From an uncultured Granulosicoccaceae bacterium (lineage in GTDB: Bacteria > Pseudomonadota > Gammaproteobacteria > Granulosicoccales > Granulosicoccaceae): a DNA stretch of 64,000 nucleotides. Positions 18,577 through 41,941 of this stretch are shown piece after piece (the first letter of the stretch is position 1; each line of letters begins with the position of its first letter). Where the stretch lies: assembly GCA_938035525.1 (NCBI GenBank), contig CALHOI010000056.1, forward strand, positions 1 to 64,000, written 5' to 3'. Both the position numbers and the translations under genes were made by a program. The notes beneath the pieces were generated by a model. It did no database searches, was not told the origin of the DNA, and saw nothing but the letters and a program-made list of their open reading frames with translations.

Positions 18577-20412
18577 TCAGTGTCGGGTTATGCCGCGTTT
18601 TCTTTCTTCTGCAGCTAGCGCACTTATGGCATTGCGAGCAATGTTGACCGCTTTACGTGTTGATTCCTGACTCTTGATACGCGCGTGCTGTTCGCGCTTC
18701 GCGGCCACTCGGCTCTCTTGTTGTGCCACTGCTGCTCGCCTTGCCAGGTGAGCTGCTGTGCGCGCCATCTTTCTTGAGCGGGCAATTTCTTGCTGCATTG
18801 CCTGTAAACGTTTGCGTTCTTTTGTTAGCAAAGTCGTGGCTATGGCTTGCTGTCTTTTTGCTCTGTCTATGAGTGCACTCTGAGCAGCAATGACCGACTC
18901 TGCGGCACGACGCGCCTGATCTTCCGATTCAATCAAGGCTTCCTTCTCTTTGATTAATTGCTGTTGATCGGAGATGTTTTGTTCTGTGGCAGTGATTGTG
19001 CTGTCACGCAGTGAGTCCAGCTCCCGGATACTCTTTTCCAGATTGCTGACTTGAGTTTGTAAAGATACTGCGGTTATCTTCGCTTCGATCAATGCTTCAT
19101 CAAGCGTTTCGGGCACTTTGTTAGCGTTGTCCAATCCTGATTCCGCCGGTTCTGAATCATCCAACACTGAATCATCCAGGTGTGAATCATCCAGGTGTGA
19201 ATCAACCAGTTGTGAATCAACCAGTTGTGAATCAACCAATTCAGTAGTGTCAGGAGAGACAGCAGTGGGGTGCGAGTATTCTCCGGTTAAATCATTGCCG
19301 AATGCAAGATCAGATTCATCAACATCGACAACTTCTGCTTCTTCAATTTCGGCATCCAGCACATTAGCGGTGTGGTCGGCTTTTTTGCTTAACGCGGTTT
19401 CATCCTTAACAACAATATTGTCGTCCAGGTTGAGTTTGGTGTCCAAATCCAGTTCTGTTCTCGAACTCGTTTGCTTTGCCTGGCGGAACTCTTCGTCATC
19501 AGGCAATTCCAGCTCGTTATGTTGTGAACGTATTTCAGCAAAAAGTTGTTCAGTTTCAGATAAATCCAGTTGTTGTTCTTCACTGGGAATGCTCGGCAGG
19601 TCCAGCTCTTCTTCCACTGCCAGCGTGTTGCTAACAGGATTATCGAACGGATTTTCGTCGATAGTCAGCTCTTCAAGGCTCTTATTGTCGTTAGCAGCAT
19701 TGGTATTACTAATTGCCTCATCCAGAGTTTGTGTACCGTCATGTTGATTGTGCAGAGGCACAACCGATTCAATGTCTTTTACATCACGCTTGGTAATATT
19801 TTCCTGATCGGCAGGCAGTTTAATTGTGTCCGCACTTTCATTGGTATTCTGATTTTTGCTTGATTCAACTGTCGCAGAATCGCTATTGTCGGCGTCTCTG
19901 CTTTTATCGATGGTGGCAGCGCTTGTGGGTTCAGGCACCGCATGGTCAGCGACGGTTGATTGTATTTGCGCTGATGATTGTATCTGCGCTGACTCGGCCT
20001 TTGCGTTTGTCGCTGGTGCATCTGCGTTTATCACGATTGGGCTCAAACCAGTTTCCTGGCTTGCGGTGCCGGTTCCTGCAGTTTGGCCGTTGATCATCAA
20101 CGGTGTGCTGGAAGCCCGGTGGCGAAGCGCTTTAAACGACCGGAACAATAAAGCGCACAGAAGCAAAGCGAGCAGGCTAATAGCGGAGATCAGCAGTGAC
20201 TGCGTTAGCAACTCTATGCCGGTATCGGTTGCTCGCCAGAAACGGCTAAGCGGTGACGCAGCCACGGCCAGAGCGGCAATAGCGCCCAACCACCGTTGGC
20301 GTCGGAGTTGAGAAGAGCGACTTTTACGATTCTTCTTAAAAACCCCAACAAGAAGCCAGAAGGCCAAAAGGCCAAGTGCCAGCATCAGCAAATGAACTTG
20401 TAGTGTTGTCAT
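18577..20412 (-). CDS. Large acidic membrane-anchored coiled-coil protein, unknown
   Basis: The 611-residue product starts at ATG 20412, with AGGA 9 bases upstream; a GTG six bases earlier is the alternative. Hydrophobic segments lie near residues 5-25, 43-58 and 70-90, separated by basic stretches, so two or three membrane passes are likely. Residues about 110-420 are strongly acidic and low in complexity, including six 5-residue repeats of the type LVDSQ/LDDSH coded by a 15-bp DNA repeat. Residues about 430-600 form a long charged coiled coil (EALIESEDQARRAAESVIA). No enzyme motif is visible. It may be a scaffold or envelope-spanning structural protein; that is inference. Confidence 0.65.
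   Translation of the reverse strand: MTTLQVHLLMLALGLLAFWLLVGVFKKNRKSRSSQLRRQRWLGAIAALAVAASPLSRFWRATDTGIELLTQSLLISAISLLALLLCALLFRSFKALRHRASSTPLMINGQTAGTGTASQETGLSPIVINADAPATNAKAESAQIQSSAQIQSTVADHAVPEPTSAATIDKSRDADNSDSATVESSKNQNTNESADTIKLPADQENITKRDVKDIESVVPLHNQHDGTQTLDEAISNTNAANDNKSLEELTIDENPFDNPVSNTLAVEEELDLPSIPSEEQQLDLSETEQLFAEIRSQHNELELPDDEEFRQAKQTSSRTELDLDTKLNLDDNIVVKDETALSKKADHTANVLDAEIEEAEVVDVDESDLAFGNDLTGEYSHPTAVSPDTTELVDSQLVDSQLVDSHLDDSHLDDSVLDDSEPAESGLDNANKVPETLDEALIEAKITAVSLQTQVSNLEKSIRELDSLRDSTITATEQNISDQQQLIKEKEALIESEDQARRAAESVIAAQSALIDRAKRQQAIATTLLTKERKRLQAMQQEIARSRKMARTAAHLARRAAVAQQESRVAAKREQHARIKSQESTRKAVNIARNAISALAAEERKRGITRH
19154..19243 (-). repeat. In-frame 15-bp tandem repeat in the coiled-coil gene
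   Basis: Six units of 15 bases beginning GAATCA start at 19154, 19169, 19184, 19199, 19214 and 19229 (+ strand). On the coding strand each gives five residues of the type L-V/D-D-S-Q/H. Copy number could vary by slippage without breaking the frame. Confidence 0.85.
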
Positions 20413-20612
20413 GTGCACACGTCCTGGGAACCCGATGTTCCATGTCGAACGGCAATTGTAATGCAGCGGGTTTGTCGGGCATTGCGCCGGAACGCAAAAT
20501 TAACTGGAGTTTGTATTCTTTTCGACTTTAAGACCGAAAACGTGACAAAGCACACAGCCTATCGATTAAGGCCGTGTGACGCAATGAGGTTTATTGGGTT
20601 AACCCGGATTTA

Positions 20613-22924: not shown

Positions 22925-23146
22925 GGTGGTGTTGTAGTCAGGCCTTGCAACCATTGTGCTGTTTAAAATAATCATCAATGGTTGCTCGGCCGGAATTTGA
23001 AAGTCATCAAGCAGCATTTGCACGCTGGTGTCAGTGCTGACATTAACCGTGTGATTGTTTTTCAAGTTAGCTGAGTTTTGAACCGGCGGAGCATACTTGA
23101 CCATTGCTCCGCCAAATTTTACCTGAACCGCAATTGCCTGACTCAT
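22871..23146 (-). CDS. MoaD/ThiS-like ubiquitin-fold protein of the AOR operon
   Basis: The 91-residue product matches the small beta-grasp family in length and pattern (VQVKFGG start, LLDDF helix, LLSDGDALSLMPPITAG end). Members of this family carry sulfur on a C-terminal Gly-Gly during molybdopterin or thiamine synthesis. Here the last two residues are Ala-Gly, not Gly-Gly. It begins with a 4-base ATGA overlap with the aldehyde oxidoreductase gene, so it probably serves tungsto/molybdopterin assembly for that enzyme. It overlaps the surface-protein gene at its 3' end. Confidence 0.7.
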   Translation of the reverse strand: MSQAIAVQVKFGGAMVKYAPPVQNSANLKNNHTVNVSTDTSVQMLLDDFQIPAEQPLMIILNSTMVARPDYNTTLLSDGDALSLMPPITAG

Positions 23147-24996
23147 GCGGTGGCACTAACCTTCCTTACGCTATCGTCTAAGCCTAATCGTTCCAGAGTG
23201 GCTTGACTGGGTATGCCTTCCTGAGACCACCCGCGCAATGCGTAGTACTCGGGCAACATGATATCCAGCTCGGCCACCTTACCTTTGGCAACGCCCTCAG
23301 GGCAGGGTGTTTCAAGCAAGCGTGGCGGTAAAGTATCGTCAGCTTTGGTCAAACCAGAACGCAAATTAAACAAACGTTCCAGATTCCAGATACGTTCTCC
23401 GGCTTCCAACAATCGTTCCGAACTCCAGTGACTCCCGCAAGCGACGCTGACTTGTTGCTGAAATTCTTCAGTGTCCCAGGCCGCGGTGGTAAACAGACAC
23501 AGGCCTGTTGAATCGATCATGGCCACTTTGTCTTGCGACGTTTTGCAAGGCCAGGCTTTGCCTTTGCCAGATACATCTGCCATGTCGACGGAGAAAGTGT
23601 CATGGCGTAAATGACAAGCACCGCGATTTCCGGTTGCGTAGCCCAGACCCATACCTTGTAGTGCGCGCGAATCGTACCCGGCAAATTCCTGCCCTTTAAC
23701 TGACATGGATAGTTCGGGTCGGCCATAGTGTTCGCACATGCGCTTCGAGCCCATGCCCAGAATTTTGCCAAAGCCTTCGTACTTGCCGGTTTTTTCAGCC
23801 ATGATGGTTAAGGCTTCAGCGTTTCCGAAGTTAAGCGCAACGCCATCGGTTTCTTCGCTGGTAATAATGCCGAGTTCAAATAACTCCATGGCGGCAGCCA
23901 GGGTAACGCCAAACGAAATTGGGTCCATGCCATGTTCGTTCATTAGGTATCCGGCGAAGGTGAGTGCATCGATATCATCAATGCCCAGCACAGGCCCAAA
24001 CGCGAACGCTGTTTCGTATTCGAGTCCACCGGATGCATGCCAGTACTGTTGGCGATCTTTAATCGAGAAATGATTTTGATCGATGTGGGCAATGCGTCCG
24101 CAACCTATCGTGCAACCGAAACACGCTTTGTTGGTGATTAAGTTCGTGTGATTGTTTTCGTTTGGTGTGGTCATGGCAGTCGGGTTAATGTTGTCAGAAC
24201 CCGGGAATGTCACTTCTTGAAAGTTACGTGTTGGCAGACCACCAAACGAATTCATGGTGTCAATCATGGCGTTGGTGCCATACTCGGTAAGGTCTTTTCT
24301 GCCCGCGCTGTCTTCGAGCAGTTGATGCGTGTGCTTAACCACTTTCATAAAGGCGGTAGCATCAGCCACCGGTACGCCAACCGTGCCACGTGCTGCCACC
24401 GCTTTAACGTTTTTTGATCCCATAACAGCGCCTACACCAGAGCGGCCAGCGGCTCGATGAAGATCGTTAACCACGCACGCGTACTTAACACCTTGTTCAC
24501 CGGCAACACCGATCGAAGCCACTTTTATTTGTGGGTCGCCGTGTTTTTCTTTGATGGCTTCTTCGGTGTGCCAAACGGTCGTACCCCAGTAATCGTTGGC
24601 ATCGTGAATCACGACCTTGTCGTCCTGAATCATCAGATAAACCGGAGAGCTGGCCTTACCTTCAAGAATCAGCAGGTCGTAGCCGGCAAATTTTAGTTCT
24701 GCACCAAACTTACCACCCGAGTTGGATGCGGCAATGGCATTGGTCAGTGGGCCTTTGGTAACAACAGCGTATCGCCCACTGGTTGAACACATGGTACCGG
24801 TGAGCGGGCCGGTAGCAAAAATGAGTGCGTTTTGTGGAGACAATGCGTCAACGGCCGGGTTGGTGCATTCCATTAAATATTTGGTACCCAGACCACGACC
24901 ACCCAAGTAGTCGTTTGCCCATTCCATATTGAGAGGTTCGACTTTAGAAGTTCTGGATGTTAAATCCACGCGCAAGACGCGTTTATGCCAAGTCAT
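23143..24996 (-). CDS. aor: Aldehyde:ferredoxin oxidoreductase (tungsten/molybdopterin)
   Basis: The 617-residue product has the full length of the AOR family. The N-terminal domain contains GGRGLGTKYL and TGTMCSTSGRY. The [4Fe-4S] ligands are in ACFGCTIGCGR near residues 292-302, with a fourth Cys in NRGACHLRHD near 485; these flank the bis-pyranopterin site. It oxidises aldehydes to acids, or the reverse, passing electrons to ferredoxin. Start ATG 24996 overlaps the ferredoxin stop by 4 bases, and its own stop overlaps the MoaD-like start by 4 bases, so the three are coupled. AOR is best known from anaerobes, so its presence beside aerobic genes is unusual. Metal and aldehyde identity cannot be read. 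Confidence 0.88.
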   Translation of the reverse strand: MTWHKRVLRVDLTSRTSKVEPLNMEWANDYLGGRGLGTKYLMECTNPAVDALSPQNALIFATGPLTGTMCSTSGRYAVVTKGPLTNAIAASNSGGKFGAELKFAGYDLLILEGKASSPVYLMIQDDKVVIHDANDYWGTTVWHTEEAIKEKHGDPQIKVASIGVAGEQGVKYACVVNDLHRAAGRSGVGAVMGSKNVKAVAARGTVGVPVADATAFMKVVKHTHQLLEDSAGRKDLTEYGTNAMIDTMNSFGGLPTRNFQEVTFPGSDNINPTAMTTPNENNHTNLITNKACFGCTIGCGRIAHIDQNHFSIKDRQQYWHASGGLEYETAFAFGPVLGIDDIDALTFAGYLMNEHGMDPISFGVTLAAAMELFELGIITSEETDGVALNFGNAEALTIMAEKTGKYEGFGKILGMGSKRMCEHYGRPELSMSVKGQEFAGYDSRALQGMGLGYATGNRGACHLRHDTFSVDMADVSGKGKAWPCKTSQDKVAMIDSTGLCLFTTAAWDTEEFQQQVSVACGSHWSSERLLEAGERIWNLERLFNLRSGLTKADDTLPPRLLETPCPEGVAKGKVAELDIMLPEYYALRGWSQEGIPSQATLERLGLDDSVRKVSATA

Positions 24997-32205: not shown

Positions 32206-32835
32206 TTAGAGAATTTCCATTGAATCAAAGAACACGTTAAGTTGTTCAGGCGTCAGGCCGACACAGAAAAGTATATGGATGTAGCTGTCTTCGTAGGCGA
32301 GTTGAGCTGCGCCATCAGTACCGGCGCTTGCAATCTGACCCGACACACGCGACATACTGGTGCCGTTAACCGTAACAAATGATACGTCTGGGATGGGTTG
32401 GGCGTCGAATAAATCAACAAACGCTTCGGTTAGCTCCAACAAACTTCCGCCAGGTGCAAACGTAGAGCCAACCCCACAATTACTCCCGCCAAACGCGCTT
32501 GACAGAAACTGTGCATCGAGCGCGTCATTGCTGGTGTCAACAATCCAGTCGGAAGGGTAGTTTAGTCGTATCAGGGATGTTGAATAGCTGGTGACATCAA
32601 TGTTGGATTGATTGGTATTGCTGGTGATGTTGTCGTTTGAACCAGCGCCGCCGGTGTCGCCAGTAACCGTGTTGTCGGTGGTGGTGTTGGCATTAGCTTC
32701 ATTTGTTCCAACCTGCGAAGCTGAATTATCCAGTGCGCCATCGTCGTCGTCGTCGCTGCTGCTACTGCAACCAAACAATGTGAGCGCTAGCGAGATAAGT
32801 AGCGTTCTGAGCATCAGTGTTTTTACAGTTGTCAC
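32206..32835 (-). CDS. Lipoprotein with Asp/Ser/Thr-rich linker, unknown
   Basis: The 209-residue product has a lipoprotein signal with lipobox LTLFGC (Cys near residue 23), then SSSSDDDDDG. An Asn/Thr/Gly-rich linker runs to about residue 80, and a globular domain follows (LIRLNYPSDWIVD, SFVTVNGTSMSRVSGQI) with two further Cys. The N-terminal Asp run is coded by a GTC/GCT trinucleotide array at 32742-32766. It is probably an outer-membrane lipoprotein with a C-terminal domain of about 125 residues. The end faces the kinase gene tail to tail over 41 bases. I do not recognise the domain. Confidence 0.65.
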   Translation of the reverse strand: MTTVKTLMLRTLLISLALTLFGCSSSSDDDDDGALDNSASQVGTNEANANTTTDNTVTGDTGGAGSNDNITSNTNQSNIDVTSYSTSLIRLNYPSDWIVDTSNDALDAQFLSSAFGGSNCGVGSTFAPGGSLLELTEAFVDLFDAQPIPDVSFVTVNGTSMSRVSGQIASAGTDGAAQLAYEDSYIHILFCVGLTPEQLNVFFDSMEIL

Positions 32836-37231: not shown

Positions 37232-38569
37232 ATGTCTAGAAAATATTTTGGTACTGATGGCATTCGCGGTCGCGTAGGGCAATTCCCAATGACAGCCGAA
37301 ACCGTGCTTAAGCTCGGCTGGGCGGCGGGTAAGGTGCTGGCCTCAAAAGGTAATCGCGAAGTGCTGATTGGTAAAGACACGCGTGTGTCTGGCTACCTGT
37401 TCGAATCTGCACTGGAAGCCGGTTTGGCTTCCGCGGGAATTAACAGCGGTATGTTGGGCCCCATGCCAACACCTGCCATAGCGTATTTAACCAGTACGTT
37501 TAGAGCTGCAGCGGGCATCGTCATCAGTGCGTCGCACAATCCGTATTACGACAACGGCTTGAAATTCTTTTCTTCCGAAGGTGCAAAGCTACCAGACGAA
37601 GTTGAACTCGAAATCGAATCCATGATGGAAGAAGACATGACCACGGTTGACTCGGCCGACCTGGGTCGTGCTGTAAGAATAAACGATGCGGCCGGGCGTT
37701 ATATCGAATTTTGCAAAAGCACGTTTCCCTCTGGCTTAAAACTCACCGGCATGAAGATTGTTGTCGATGCAGCCAACGGCGCAGGTTACGACATTGCCCG
37801 TCGTGTGTTTGATGAACTGGGCGCTGATGTTATTTCTGTGGGTGCCGAACCCAATGGACTTAACATCAATAAAGATTGCGGCGCCACAGCACCAGACAAC
37901 TTGCGTGCACACGTGTTGCTGGAGCGAGCCGATGTCGGGATTGCACTCGATGGTGACGGTGATCGACTCATCATGGTTGATCATCGTGGCGAGATAGTCG
38001 ATGGTGACGAGATTTTATTTGTACTGGCTAAAGCCCGGCAAGAGCAGGGCACCATGGTTGGTGGTGTCGCTGGAACGCTTATGACAAACCTGGGGCTTGA
38101 GCATGCTTTAAGCTCAATGGACATTCCGTTTGCGCGCGCCGGCGTTGGTGATCGATACGTCATGGAATTACTCAAACAGCACGAATGGCAGCTCGGCGGT
38201 GAAAACTCAGGGCATATCATTTGTCTTGATCGGGTCACCACAGGTGATGCGATTGTGGCAGCACTTGAAGTACTGTCGGTCATCAAAAACAGTGGCGAGC
38301 CACTGGCAAAGCTGCGCTCCGACATGAAGCTTTATCCGCAGGTACTCAAAAATGTACCGTTAACTAAGAAAGTCGACTTCAGTGAAAACACCGCAATCAA
38401 TGCGGCTGTTAAGCAAGCGGAAGAATCACTGGGCGATAGCGGCCGAATTTTACTTCGACCCTCAGGTACCGAGCCTTTGGTGCGTGTTATGGTTGAAGGG
38501 CAGGTGGCTAACGATGTTGAGCGCATTTGCGAGCAAGTGGCTAAAACCGTTAATGACGAGCTCGGCTGA
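37232..38569 (+). CDS. glmM: Phosphoglucosamine mutase GlmM
   Basis: The 445-residue enzyme interconverts glucosamine-6-phosphate and glucosamine-1-phosphate for peptidoglycan and lipopolysaccharide precursors. The active phosphoserine is in [16 protein letters not shown] near residues 100-112. The metal site DGDGDR lies near 241-246, the sugar loop GGENSGHI near 324-331 and the phosphate-binding [12 protein letters not shown] near 410-421. Full family length, ATG start. The product depends on GlmU downstream, not in this window. A 19-base hairpin covers its stop codon. Confidence 0.95.
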
Positions 38570-38580
38570 TAGTCAGCCGA
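38562..38580. other. Inverted repeat over the glmM stop codon
   Basis: TCGGCTGA and its complement, 3-base loop, overlap the stop of glmM. No T run follows; it could be a weak termination or stability element between convergent genes. Confidence 0.35.
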
Positions 38581-38611
38581 ACGTCGGTACTTAGGTAATT
38601 ATTTAGATAGT

Positions 38612-39352
38612 TTAAATCACGCCGCCGCGAATAAACTCAACCGAGTTAAGCACAGCACGCAGTTGTGCTTCGTTCTGACCAAACCGGTCGGTCGGTGAGG
38701 CGCATTCAACTGAGCTCAATGCCGCTAAGCCAAACGAGACATCGTCGGGGCTAAAGTAATTAACGTGAACCACGGACGTTAAATCCAGATCTTCAGTGCC
38801 AAAGCTGTAAATGTATTCGATGCCAACATTGTCGGTTGGCCCATTGATATCCACGATTGAAACCGTTTGCGTATCGTTGGCTTCTGTTGCTTGTACGAAG
38901 CTGGTGTAAGCCGCGTTAGGTCCCACATCTTCTTCCATGATGGTGAACGTGGCCACACAAATCACGATCGTCACGTTATCCAGTGCAGCGTATAGCGTTT
39001 GCTGTACTCGCGAATCGTAGTCAATGTCGTTTTGTTCTGTGATGTTCAGTCTGCCCAGATCGACCGTGTGTTGACCGTTGAACAAACCCGGATTCAATTC
39101 GCCGCCCGTATTAGTGGATGTGCCACCAGTGCTGTCACCGCCTGTCGTGTCTCCGGTGCCGCCCGTACCGCCCGTTGTGCCATCGGTTGTGCCGCCATCC
39201 GTACTTCCAGAATTGCCACCAACTTCGGTCGTGTTAGTCGGCAGTCGCACCAAGTCATTCTGATCATCACCTGAACTTCCGCAAGCGCTTAGCATGCTGA
39301 CCAGAGCTGTGGCCAGGGTCGCGTGCAGGGTGGTTGTTAATGTTGCCTTCAT
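38612..39352 (-). CDS. Lipoprotein of a three-member paralogous family (member A)
   Basis: The 246-residue product has a lipobox (MLSAC, Cys near residue 24) followed by GSSGDDQND. A Gly/Thr-rich linker runs from about residue 42 to 82, and then a conserved domain of about 160 residues follows. Landmarks are NPGLFNGQHTVDLG, CVATFTI, GPNAAY, GPTDNVGIEYIYSF, VECASP and GQNEAQLRAVLNSVEFIRG. These landmarks and two Cys recur in members B and C upstream. It is probably an outer-membrane lipoprotein, with a 212-base gap from member B that can hold its own promoter. I do not know the family. Confidence 0.68.
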   Translation of the reverse strand: MKATLTTTLHATLATALVSMLSACGSSGDDQNDLVRLPTNTTEVGGNSGSTDGGTTDGTTGGTGGTGDTTGGDSTGGTSTNTGGELNPGLFNGQHTVDLGRLNITEQNDIDYDSRVQQTLYAALDNVTIVICVATFTIMEEDVGPNAAYTSFVQATEANDTQTVSIVDINGPTDNVGIEYIYSFGTEDLDLTSVVHVNYFSPDDVSFGLAALSSVECASPTDRFGQNEAQLRAVLNSVEFIRGGVI

Positions 39353-39564
39353 CGCTTGTTACCTTTTTCCGTGGGTCAGTCGTCCCGGTTATTCGTACAT
39401 GTTAGCTCGGCCCGGAACGTTTTGCCCGTACTGTGCCGCAATAGCGGTGGTTTTGCCGCTAACGGATGCTCAATATGGCTCACAGCGCGAGTTTTTCTGG
39501 TGCCACGCGCTGTTTTACTCGCCCCAGCCCCGTTTTAATTGACTGGATTCCGTTGCCATAATGG

Positions 39565-40209
39565 CTAGTTCGATGTGCCTTCGTTGCCCCGAAGGTGCAC
39601 TACAGAATCCAATACCGACCTGATTTGTGACTCGTTCAGCCCATAGCTGTTGGTTTGCGAGGCGCATTCGATCACTGAGAGCATCGGGTTGTCGAATATG
39701 ACGTCCTCGGCGTAGAAGAAATGCGCATGCATCAGCGTGGTAAAGCTTGTTTCGTTAATGGTAAAGCCATAGCTATATTCAATGCCAACAACGTGTGTTG
39801 GTCCTGGTATGTCTTTTATCGAAATCGTGAAGATGCTGTCGTCCTGCGCCAGGTTGTTCTCAATTAAGGCGGTGTAGTTAGGGTTTGGGCCAGCGTTGTT
39901 TAACAGTATGGTTATTGAGCCAACGCATTGAACGCCGGTTGCCCTGTCTATCGCCTGATATAAAACTTGTGAAGATCGTAAGTCGTAGTTTAGCGGTGTA
40001 ACAGAGACTAACTCCAGTGTGCCCAAATCGACGGCATGCAGACCATTGAACAAATTTGAATCAATGTCCTCACCATTGTTATTGTTTGTCTCTGTGACGA
40101 AAAAGTCGGGGTCGATAAGCATTCCCGAATCATTGCTGGCAGAGCCGCTGCAGCCAATGAGCATGAGGACAGCGCAGGCACTAATGAGTGAGTAGATCAA
40201 GCCATTCAT
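39565..40209 (-). CDS. Lipoprotein of a three-member paralogous family (member B)
   Basis: The 214-residue product has a signal with lipobox LMLIGC (Cys near residue 20), then SGSASNDSG and a short acidic Asn-rich linker, so it lacks the long Gly/Thr linker of member A. The domain repeats the family landmarks LFNGLHAVDLG, CVGSITI, GPNPNY, GPTHVVGIEYSYGF, IECASQ and GLNESQIRSVLDSVVHLRG. Its start overlaps the stop of member C by 4 bases, so the two are translationally coupled. No catalytic residues stand out. The two conserved Cys may form a disulfide. Confidence 0.68.
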   Translation of the reverse strand: MNGLIYSLISACAVLMLIGCSGSASNDSGMLIDPDFFVTETNNNNGEDIDSNLFNGLHAVDLGTLELVSVTPLNYDLRSSQVLYQAIDRATGVQCVGSITILLNNAGPNPNYTALIENNLAQDDSIFTISIKDIPGPTHVVGIEYSYGFTINETSFTTLMHAHFFYAEDVIFDNPMLSVIECASQTNSYGLNESQIRSVLDSVVHLRGNEGTSN

Positions 40210-40916
40210 TGTGGCGCTCCGAGTATTATGTTTTCTTCGCCCTCGGTACCTCTGAGGTATTCAACAGAATCCAGAACTGCGCGCATCAGTGCTTCGTTCT
40301 GACCGTATTTTTCCGTCAGCGTTGCGCATTGAGTTGTGCTTAACGCGGGAAGACCAAAAGTGACGTCCTGCGGACTCAAATAGTGCGCATTATTGATGGA
40401 CGTGAATATGACCACGGTTCCATCTTCGGCAGTGAAATCGACGCTATAGATGTATTCAATGCCAACATTATTCGTTGGGCCTTCTATGTCTCTGATGGAA
40501 ACGGTTTCCACGCCGCCAGCTTCGATGCTTTGAATAAAGTTAATGTAACTGGGGTTTGGTCCGGTGTCTTCGGTTGTGATCTCCAGTGTGGCAATGCAAA
40601 CGACATCTTTTTCGTCATCAAACGCCTGCAAAAATATTTGCAACAGCCGCGAGTTGTAATTGATCGGCGCGCTTTTTTCGTCATCGAGCGTCAGGGACCC
40701 CAAGTCGATGCCAATGCGACCATTGAGCAGAGTGGGGTTAAGCGCCCCGCCAGAATCTGTAGGGTTGGGGCCGGCGCCGCCAATAGTCAGTCCAGACTCT
40801 GTGGTGCTGACCCTGTCATTAGGGTCATCACCTGAGCTGCCGCAACCGGTTAGCATCAGCACCAGGAGCAGCTTTACCAATAGCCCGTTGCGCTGGATTG
40901 AGAATAGGGTCTTCAT
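40206..40916 (-). CDS. Lipoprotein of a three-member paralogous family (member C)
   Basis: From ATG 40916, with AAAGG 7 bases upstream, the product has 236 residues. Its lipobox is LMLTGC (Cys near residue 24), followed by GSSGDDPNDRV almost as in member A. The conserved domain has LLNGRIGIDLG, CIATLEI, GPNPSY, GPTNNVGIEYIYSV, TQCATL and GQNEALMRAVLDSVEYLRG. A frame open 27 codons further upstream is less likely because it lacks a signal. This is the first gene of the lipoprotein run, and it diverges from tpiA across about 270 bases. Function unknown. Confidence 0.68.
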   Translation of the reverse strand: MKTLFSIQRNGLLVKLLLVLMLTGCGSSGDDPNDRVSTTESGLTIGGAGPNPTDSGGALNPTLLNGRIGIDLGSLTLDDEKSAPINYNSRLLQIFLQAFDDEKDVVCIATLEITTEDTGPNPSYINFIQSIEAGGVETVSIRDIEGPTNNVGIEYIYSVDFTAEDGTVVIFTSINNAHYLSPQDVTFGLPALSTTQCATLTEKYGQNEALMRAVLDSVEYLRGTEGEENIILGAPQ

Positions 40917-41185
40917 GCAAATACCTTTGTCATTTGGGTCAATATACCCAATAGTTGGGCTACTAGTAGCGAACCTTAGTTTACATTGGTCATACATTGC
41001 CGAAAAACCACGTTTTTTGCCGCAATCGATTGCTCAATATGAGTAGTTGGCTGATCTTGTTTACGCCTCTGTTCATTGGGTCAATTGGGCACAATTTCTG
41101 TCCACAAAGTCGTTTTTGAGAGAAGCTGGACTAAGTAGATCGAAATCAGGTACCCTATCGGGTTTTGGTCGGCGAGAGTTCTTGC

Positions 41186-41941
41186 GTGAGTACGCGTACC
41201 CCATTAGTAGCAGGAAACTGGAAGCTGAACGGCTCCAGAGAGTCGGTTGCCAGCCTGGCAAAAGCCATTGCTGATGGCATGGCGGGTAAATCATGCGAGG
41301 TGCTTGTGTGTCCGACTTTCGTGCATCTTGCCGATGTGCAGAGCGTGCTCGCAGGCTCGTCAGTGCTGTTGGGTGCGCAAAATTGTTCGGTTGAACAAGA
41401 AGGCGCTTACACCGGCGAAGTGTCGTCACCGATGATCAAAGCGTTTGGCGCCCAGTACGTTATTGTTGGTCATTCTGAGCGGCGCGCCATGTACGCAGAA
41501 ACCAGCGACCTGGTTGCGCAAAAAGCGCAAGCTGTGCAGCAAGCTGGAATGCAGCCTATAGTTTGCGTTGGCGAGACATTGGAGCAACGTGAAGCCGGGC
41601 AATTGCAGGCCGTGCTGGACGAGCAGCTGGATGCCGTCGTCAACCTGTTAGGTATTGGCTCAATGGCTCAGTGTGTTATCGCGTACGAGCCGGTTTGGGC
41701 CATCGGCACTGGGCGCTCTGCCAGCAGCGAGCAGGCGCAGGAAGTGCATGCCATGATCAGACAGAAGTTAGCCGTTCTCGATGCTGGAGTGGCTCAGCAG
41801 GTGCGCATTTTGTACGGCGGTAGTGTCAAACCCGACAATGCACAAGAGTTATTCATGCAGCCCGATATTGATGGTGGATTAATTGGCGGTGCGGCTTTAA
41901 AGGCTGAATCGTTTTTGGGTATTTGTGCGGCGGCCGTCTAG
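41186..41941 (+). CDS. tpiA: Triosephosphate isomerase TpiA
   Basis: The glycolytic enzyme interconverts dihydroxyacetone phosphate and glyceraldehyde-3-phosphate. Motifs are VAGNWKLNGS at the start, the catalytic His in IVGHSERR near residues 90-97, the catalytic Glu in AYEPVWAIGTG near 162-172, and phosphate-binding GGSVKPDNA near 205-213. From GTG 41186 the length is 251, normal for the family, and GGCGAGAG lies 7 bases upstream. A frame open to a TTG at 41165 lacks a ribosome site. In the conserved locus tpiA directly follows glmM; here about 2.6 kb of lipoprotein genes intervene. Confidence 0.93.
   Translation: MSTRTPLVAGNWKLNGSRESVASLAKAIADGMAGKSCEVLVCPTFVHLADVQSVLAGSSVLLGAQNCSVEQEGAYTGEVSSPMIKAFGAQYVIVGHSERRAMYAETSDLVAQKAQAVQQAGMQPIVCVGETLEQREAGQLQAVLDEQLDAVVNLLGIGSMAQCVIAYEPVWAIGTGRSASSEQAQEVHAMIRQKLAVLDAGVAQQVRILYGGSVKPDNAQELFMQPDIDGGLIGGAALKAESFLGICAAAV

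Follow-up and report, generated by a model that had tools for sequence, protein, structure and literature searches.

Two questions are raised by the junction of glmM and tpiA in this genome: what are the three lipoprotein genes that lie there, and how did they come to separate two genes that are direct neighbors in related bacteria? The window analyzed is a stretch of 64,000 nucleotides from an uncultured Granulosicoccaceae bacterium; among 80 named glmM loci, 11 carry the label Granulosicoccaceae or Granulosicoccus, the closest one included. The first-pass annotation had proposed three paralogous minus-strand lipoprotein ORFs at this site, and all three are present. LpA (38612–39352, 246 aa) has the lipobox LSAC, a long Gly/Thr linker, and a 159-residue core with two Cys; LpB (39565–40209, 214 aa) has the lipobox LIGC, a short Asn-rich linker, and a core with two Cys; LpC (40206–40916, 236 aa) has the lipobox LTGC. 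The difference in linkers between LpA and LpB, also pointed out earlier, can be read directly from the sequence. The true neighbors are glmM on the left (37232–38569, plus strand, stop at 38569) and tpiA on the right (41165–41941, plus strand, start at 41165).

A longer LpC ORF runs from 40997 (40206–40997, 263 aa as listed). The start is probably the ATG at 40916 rather than 40997, because AAAGG stands upstream of this ATG and the signal peptide and lipobox are then placed at the N terminus. The LpC stop overlaps LpB by 4 bases, and 212 bases separate the LpB stop from the LpA start. LpC and LpB probably form one transcript; in front of LpA lies a separate copy of the upstream element described below. 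Promoter and terminator scans of the locus returned one match each, below the number given by shuffles.

The three proteins are clearly paralogs. Pairwise BLAST of their cores gives identities of 45% (A–B), 50% (A–C), and 42% (B–C), with E values from 7e-41 to 1e-54, far past chance; over their full lengths, the identities to LpA are 41 and 52% (MAFFT). The landmarks GPN-x2-Y, GPT-x2-VGIEY, and G-x-NE-x3-R-x-VL-x-SV-x3-RG are invariant in all three, as are the two Cys, at spacings slightly different from those first given. Differences at first, second, and third codon positions number 72/51/101, 58/38/98, and 58/55/95 in the three paralog pairs, and the NG86 method gives dN of 0.38–0.55 with dS above 2 or undefined. 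Third positions thus vary most, which, taken with the NG86 dN and dS, points to LpA–C being selected coding sequence. In the phylogenetic tree, the three split from two more distant relatives, in genomes G029 and G065 of the same family, with support of 99/96; the relatives form long branches, and within the array LpB and LpC pair with support of 87/88. Synonymous sites are saturated or undefined among the paralogs, and likewise for glmM and tpiA against four sister genomes, so the duplication is not datable against the species split.

The idea that the copies diversified after duplication is backed both by this split in the tree and by an upstream element that was duplicated as well. The element, 27 bp long, occurs on the minus strand at 39451–39477, 99 nt from the LpA start, and at 41015–41041, 99 nt from the LpC start when this is placed at 40916. 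Its two copies are identical at 23 of 27 bases. The alignment score of 34 was reached in 0 of 1000 mononucleotide shuffles, the shuffle maximum being 27. When a 24-base form was sought across this genome with up to three mismatches, it was found exactly in two places, the LpA and LpC copies, and at three mismatches in two others; nothing nearer than three mismatches was found elsewhere in the genome. Since the element stands in two upstream regions and has no closer copy in the genome, the duplication probably carried its upstream or promoter region along, and the element was then held while its surroundings diverged.

How unusual is the position of the array? Among 48 family genomes (our own included), 43 have a glmM match, and the locus was fetched for 29 of the 42 others. 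In all 29 family relatives read, tpiA directly follows glmM on the same strand, and no LpA–C gene lies there; the array is thus not universal at this locus, and its description as inserted between neighbors stands. The gap between the two genes, measured from tblastn ends, is −5 to 237 bases in these relatives, with a single exception of 859 bases in the sister genome G020. The broader claim that glmM and tpiA are normally adjacent applies within the family; in other lineages, tpiA was matched on the same strand, 44–311 bases from glmM, in 22 of 69 glmM loci, and no tpiA match (E 1e-8) was found in the remaining 47 within the stretch covered. Across 130 glmM loci scanned, with some genomes represented more than once, only the window's own has an LpA, LpB, or LpC match (E 1e-8).

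The sister genome G022 allows the extent of the insertion to be gauged. By short blastn matches, a segment of ∼2.56 kb (38568–41124) is without counterpart there, where ∼0.16 kb takes its place; its right edge is set by a blastn match at E 1e-9 and its left edge by the glmM end at E 0.05. This insertion is genuine, and no other genome read shares it; the data fit a gain in this genome as well as a loss from its sisters. In the exceptional G020 gap lies an unrelated ankyrin-repeat ORF of 221 aa (L045, 6685–7350, minus strand). A different insert at the same place shows that the glmM–tpiA gap tolerates insertions. We also observed a short, perfect inverted repeat, CGGCTGA-TAG-TCAGCCG, at 38563–38579, which spans the glmM stop codon and has no T-run; a hairpin with a T-run is found instead in four of five sister gaps compared by eye.

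The sequences of the proteins suggest where they go. A signal peptide and lipobox can be read in LpA, LpB, LpC, and both relatives. Lipoboxes follow the rule [LV]-x-[GA]-C near the N terminus, and a residue other than Asp at position +2 directs sorting to the outer membrane. With LSAC-G, LIGC-S, and LTGC-G, none of the three has Asp at +2, as expected of outer-membrane lipoproteins; lipidation and outer-membrane sorting can therefore be predicted for LpA–C. The first-pass annotation had suggested that the set could be surface lipoproteins: the sequence speaks for a lipid anchor and, under the +2 rule, for sorting to the outer membrane, but does not give the exposed face. After the lipobox Cys, all five proteins have exactly two Cys, 83–90 residues apart and invariant in the alignment. 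As this pair lies in the exported mature domain of every member, a disulfide between the two is likely. The linkers vary freely among the five, and the core is conserved.

The family had not been recognized at first, and no curated family claims it. LpA–C have no match above the curated cut-offs of Pfam and NCBIfam, nothing convincing in PHROGs (best E 0.011, in the linker region), and no match in PADLOC. Several marginal candidates were set aside. Sequence matches in the PDB to gp120, PLK4, and a terpene synthase had E values of 0.4 or worse; LptM reached no more than 15.7 and 13.9 bits where the cut-offs are 27.3 and 27.7, and its match is confined to the signal peptide and lipobox region; DUF6660 and SDR-type matches were short and under the cut-off (E 0.003 to 0.16); and DUF4785_2nd (E 0.039) and FtsH_ext (E 0.12) matched single members only. 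Titles and abstract openings of the papers found on Granulosicoccus and lipoproteins mention no such family; it is apparently undescribed until now.

Clear relatives exist in 2 of the 47 other family genomes, which have one copy each, at loci unrelated to this one. The G029 relative, from another genus of the family, was found at E 4.1e-17 with a three-row profile, and the G065 relative, from the same genus as G029, at E 4.0e-13 once the G029 protein had been added. Pairwise BLAST gives E 2e-18 for LpA against the G029 protein and E 2e-12 between the two relatives. The first adjoins what we take, from its translation, to be a subtilase-like ORF; the second lies between ORFs that are presumably endonuclease III-like and LacI-like, again judging by their translations. 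A five-row profile found only our own genome among 369 class genomes (E 0.01) and 398 phylum genomes (E 0.001), samples that overlap and contain few other members of the family. A pattern scan of genome contigs, an insensitive method, returned no relatives from 36 stretches tested. Weaker hits were rejected. Those in the class genomes G277, G349, and G090 (E 8–9e-4 with an earlier profile, partial in long frames) did not reappear when the five-row profile was run at E 0.01, and that in G026 (E 5.5e-4) covered largely the signal and linker region. Hits in G001 and G008 (E 0.04–0.05) and in G066, G005, G058, G000:C17, G065:C62, and G023 (E 0.16–0.93) were dropped among low-complexity, partial, or weak matches. 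What remains is a genuine, ordinary lineage-specific lipoprotein family.

An HMM or structural search had been recommended as the way to place the shared domain. The profile searches assign it to no curated family, and structure prediction provides a tentative hint. A Mog1p/PsbP/LpqN-like fold was proposed from the strand–helix pattern and a C-terminal L-x-SV-x-F, before the core model was made and after the secondary structure of the full-length model had been seen. The core model, built from three sequences, has a mean pLDDT of 36.8. Its best VIA match is DcrB (6e8a; Z 8.6, rmsd 3.8 over 112 residues), and the first ten rows (Z 8.6 to about 6.7) comprise DcrB, three SciW entries, PA94 (presumably an Eag protein), a Jonesia protein, EagT6, two MTC28 entries, and photosystem II chain P, which we take to be PsbP. 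Nine of these ten belong to the Mog1p/PsbP-like superfamily, the exception being the uncharacterized Jonesia protein. Best Z values of 7–8 are common in VIA without true relation, and beta-lactamase chains appear from row 11 (Z 6.6), level with rows 8–10. Foldseek returned nothing at E 0.001 for the core model; DcrB, MTC28, and Mog1p appear in its list together with Bet v 1-like proteins, which score equally well. The full-length model (mean pLDDT 33.4) best matched eRF1 chains at Z 4.6, and no Mog1p/PsbP-like row was among its best 50 matches listed. At the level of sequence, hhalign against a profile of 10 DcrB domains gave a probability of 0.14%, Pfam and NCBIfam gave no PsbP, DcrB, or LpqN match for LpA–C, and PF01789 had no match at E 0.01 in the 48 family genomes. 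We rate the Mog1p/PsbP-like alpha/beta fold of the modeled core at roughly even chances.

It is useful to compare LpA–C with known proteins of this kind. DcrB (DUF1795) is described in PMC7716261 as a lipid-anchored, small periplasmic alpha/beta domain. LpA–C likewise have a small domain with a predicted lipid anchor, and DcrB is the best structural match of their low-confidence core model; unlike DcrB, they have a conserved Cys pair and a long linker, and the two share no sequence-profile similarity. The mycobacterial proteins LpqN (Z 6.3) and MTC28 (Z 7.1) are also among the core-model matches, but LpA–C match neither the NCBIfam LpqN model nor any PDB sequence, and no literature connecting LpqN with Mog1 was found. 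A further comparison is the N-terminal domain of PA1624 from Pseudomonas aeruginosa, which PMC7716261 presents as lineage-restricted and periplasmic, with a distant Mog1p/PsbP-like fold that was unpredictable from sequence. As described there, PA1624 differs from LpA–C in having no N-terminal lipid-anchor Cys and in carrying a second, OmpA-like domain.

The reading that we favor, tentatively and at a little under even chances, is that of a small, lineage-restricted outer-membrane lipoprotein family, duplicated in situ in a single Granulosicoccaceae species, whose members bear a disulfide-held binding domain on a linker. LpA–C would be exported, receive a lipid at the lipobox Cys, and be borne on a flexible, low-complexity linker. 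This linker would present a domain of ∼160 residues with one disulfide, most likely, if the core model can be trusted, of the Mog1p/PsbP-like alpha/beta fold. By analogy with what has been proposed for DcrB-like proteins, the domain could, speculatively, act in the envelope as a nonenzymatic module for binding or assembly. No conserved neighbor or partner indicating a binding role was found.

A plainer reading is that these are ordinary accessory lipoproteins that evolve fast, have no specific partner, and come and go among related species, so that the duplication means little functionally. The scatter of relatives over unrelated loci in two genomes and the insertion of an unrelated ankyrin gene at this gap in G020 both suit it, and we consider it possible, though somewhat doubtful. 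Against it, the diverged copies still share the domain core, the Cys pair, and the upstream element, which argues for selection on those copies.

A bolder version of the favored account, which we regard as unlikely, is that an undescribed family, found so far only in Granulosicoccaceae, broadens the Mog1p/PsbP-like fold to include envelope receptors or orphan immunity proteins that are pinned by a disulfide and presented on a linker, as a co-regulated array amplified in one species. Immunity taken by itself is less likely still. On that hypothesis, LpA–C would be Tsi3-like periplasmic blockers of an incoming T6SS effector, a small array kept without effectors of its own. Tandem, diverged paralogs and a patchy distribution would suit such a role. 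The Tsi3 chain 4n80_B, a related sandwich fold, is indeed among the matches of the core model, and PMC3792639 reports MOG1P and PsbP as structural neighbors of Tsi3 in its authors' DALI search. However, the fold match is weak (Z 6.1), and the array, unlike Tsi3, adjoins no effector-like gene, its neighbors being glmM and tpiA. The T6SS sheath gene VipB, present in 9 of the 48 family genomes (G029 included), was not found in G065 or in our own genome, which is 87.78% complete in 114 contigs. Least likely of all is mobile-element or phage cargo: a ∼2.56-kb segment absent from a conserved junction in the relatives read could have arrived in this way, but its ORF list has no integrase- or transposase-like ORF, LpA has no plasmid match, LpC no phage match, a viral-contig pattern scan was negative, and its GC content of 0.46–0.55 is like that of the flanks.

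The locus is relevant in several ways. First, a small and apparently undescribed family of lipoproteins comes to light in a marine lineage. Second, the glmM–tpiA gap tolerates species-specific insertions, two different ones having been seen. Third, if the fold is true, the domain would be one more Mog1p/PsbP-like domain lying under sequence detection, as PA1624 did. Otherwise, this is an ordinary lineage-specific duplication.

Elsewhere in the window, a fourth orphan lipoprotein is encoded at 32206–32835 on the minus strand, with a GTG start, the lipobox LFGC, an Asn/Thr linker, and two Cys in its domain. It contains the motif LNYPSDW, ends in FFDSMEIL, and weakly matches PsbP_2 (E 0.061) and, in its N-terminal half, LpqN (E 0.0047); it does not significantly resemble LpA or the G065 protein and has no PDB sequence match. 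An aldehyde ferredoxin oxidoreductase, which we did not expect in a marine gammaproteobacterium, is encoded at 23143–24996 on the minus strand (AFOR_N E 3.3e-81, AFOR_C E 9.5e-128). Finally, a 613-aa ORF at 18577–20418, also on the minus strand and without a Pfam match at E 1e-5, has stretches of hydrophobic residues at its N terminus, short repeats LVDSQLVDSHLDDS within a long acidic middle part, and a charged C terminus that resembles a coiled coil.
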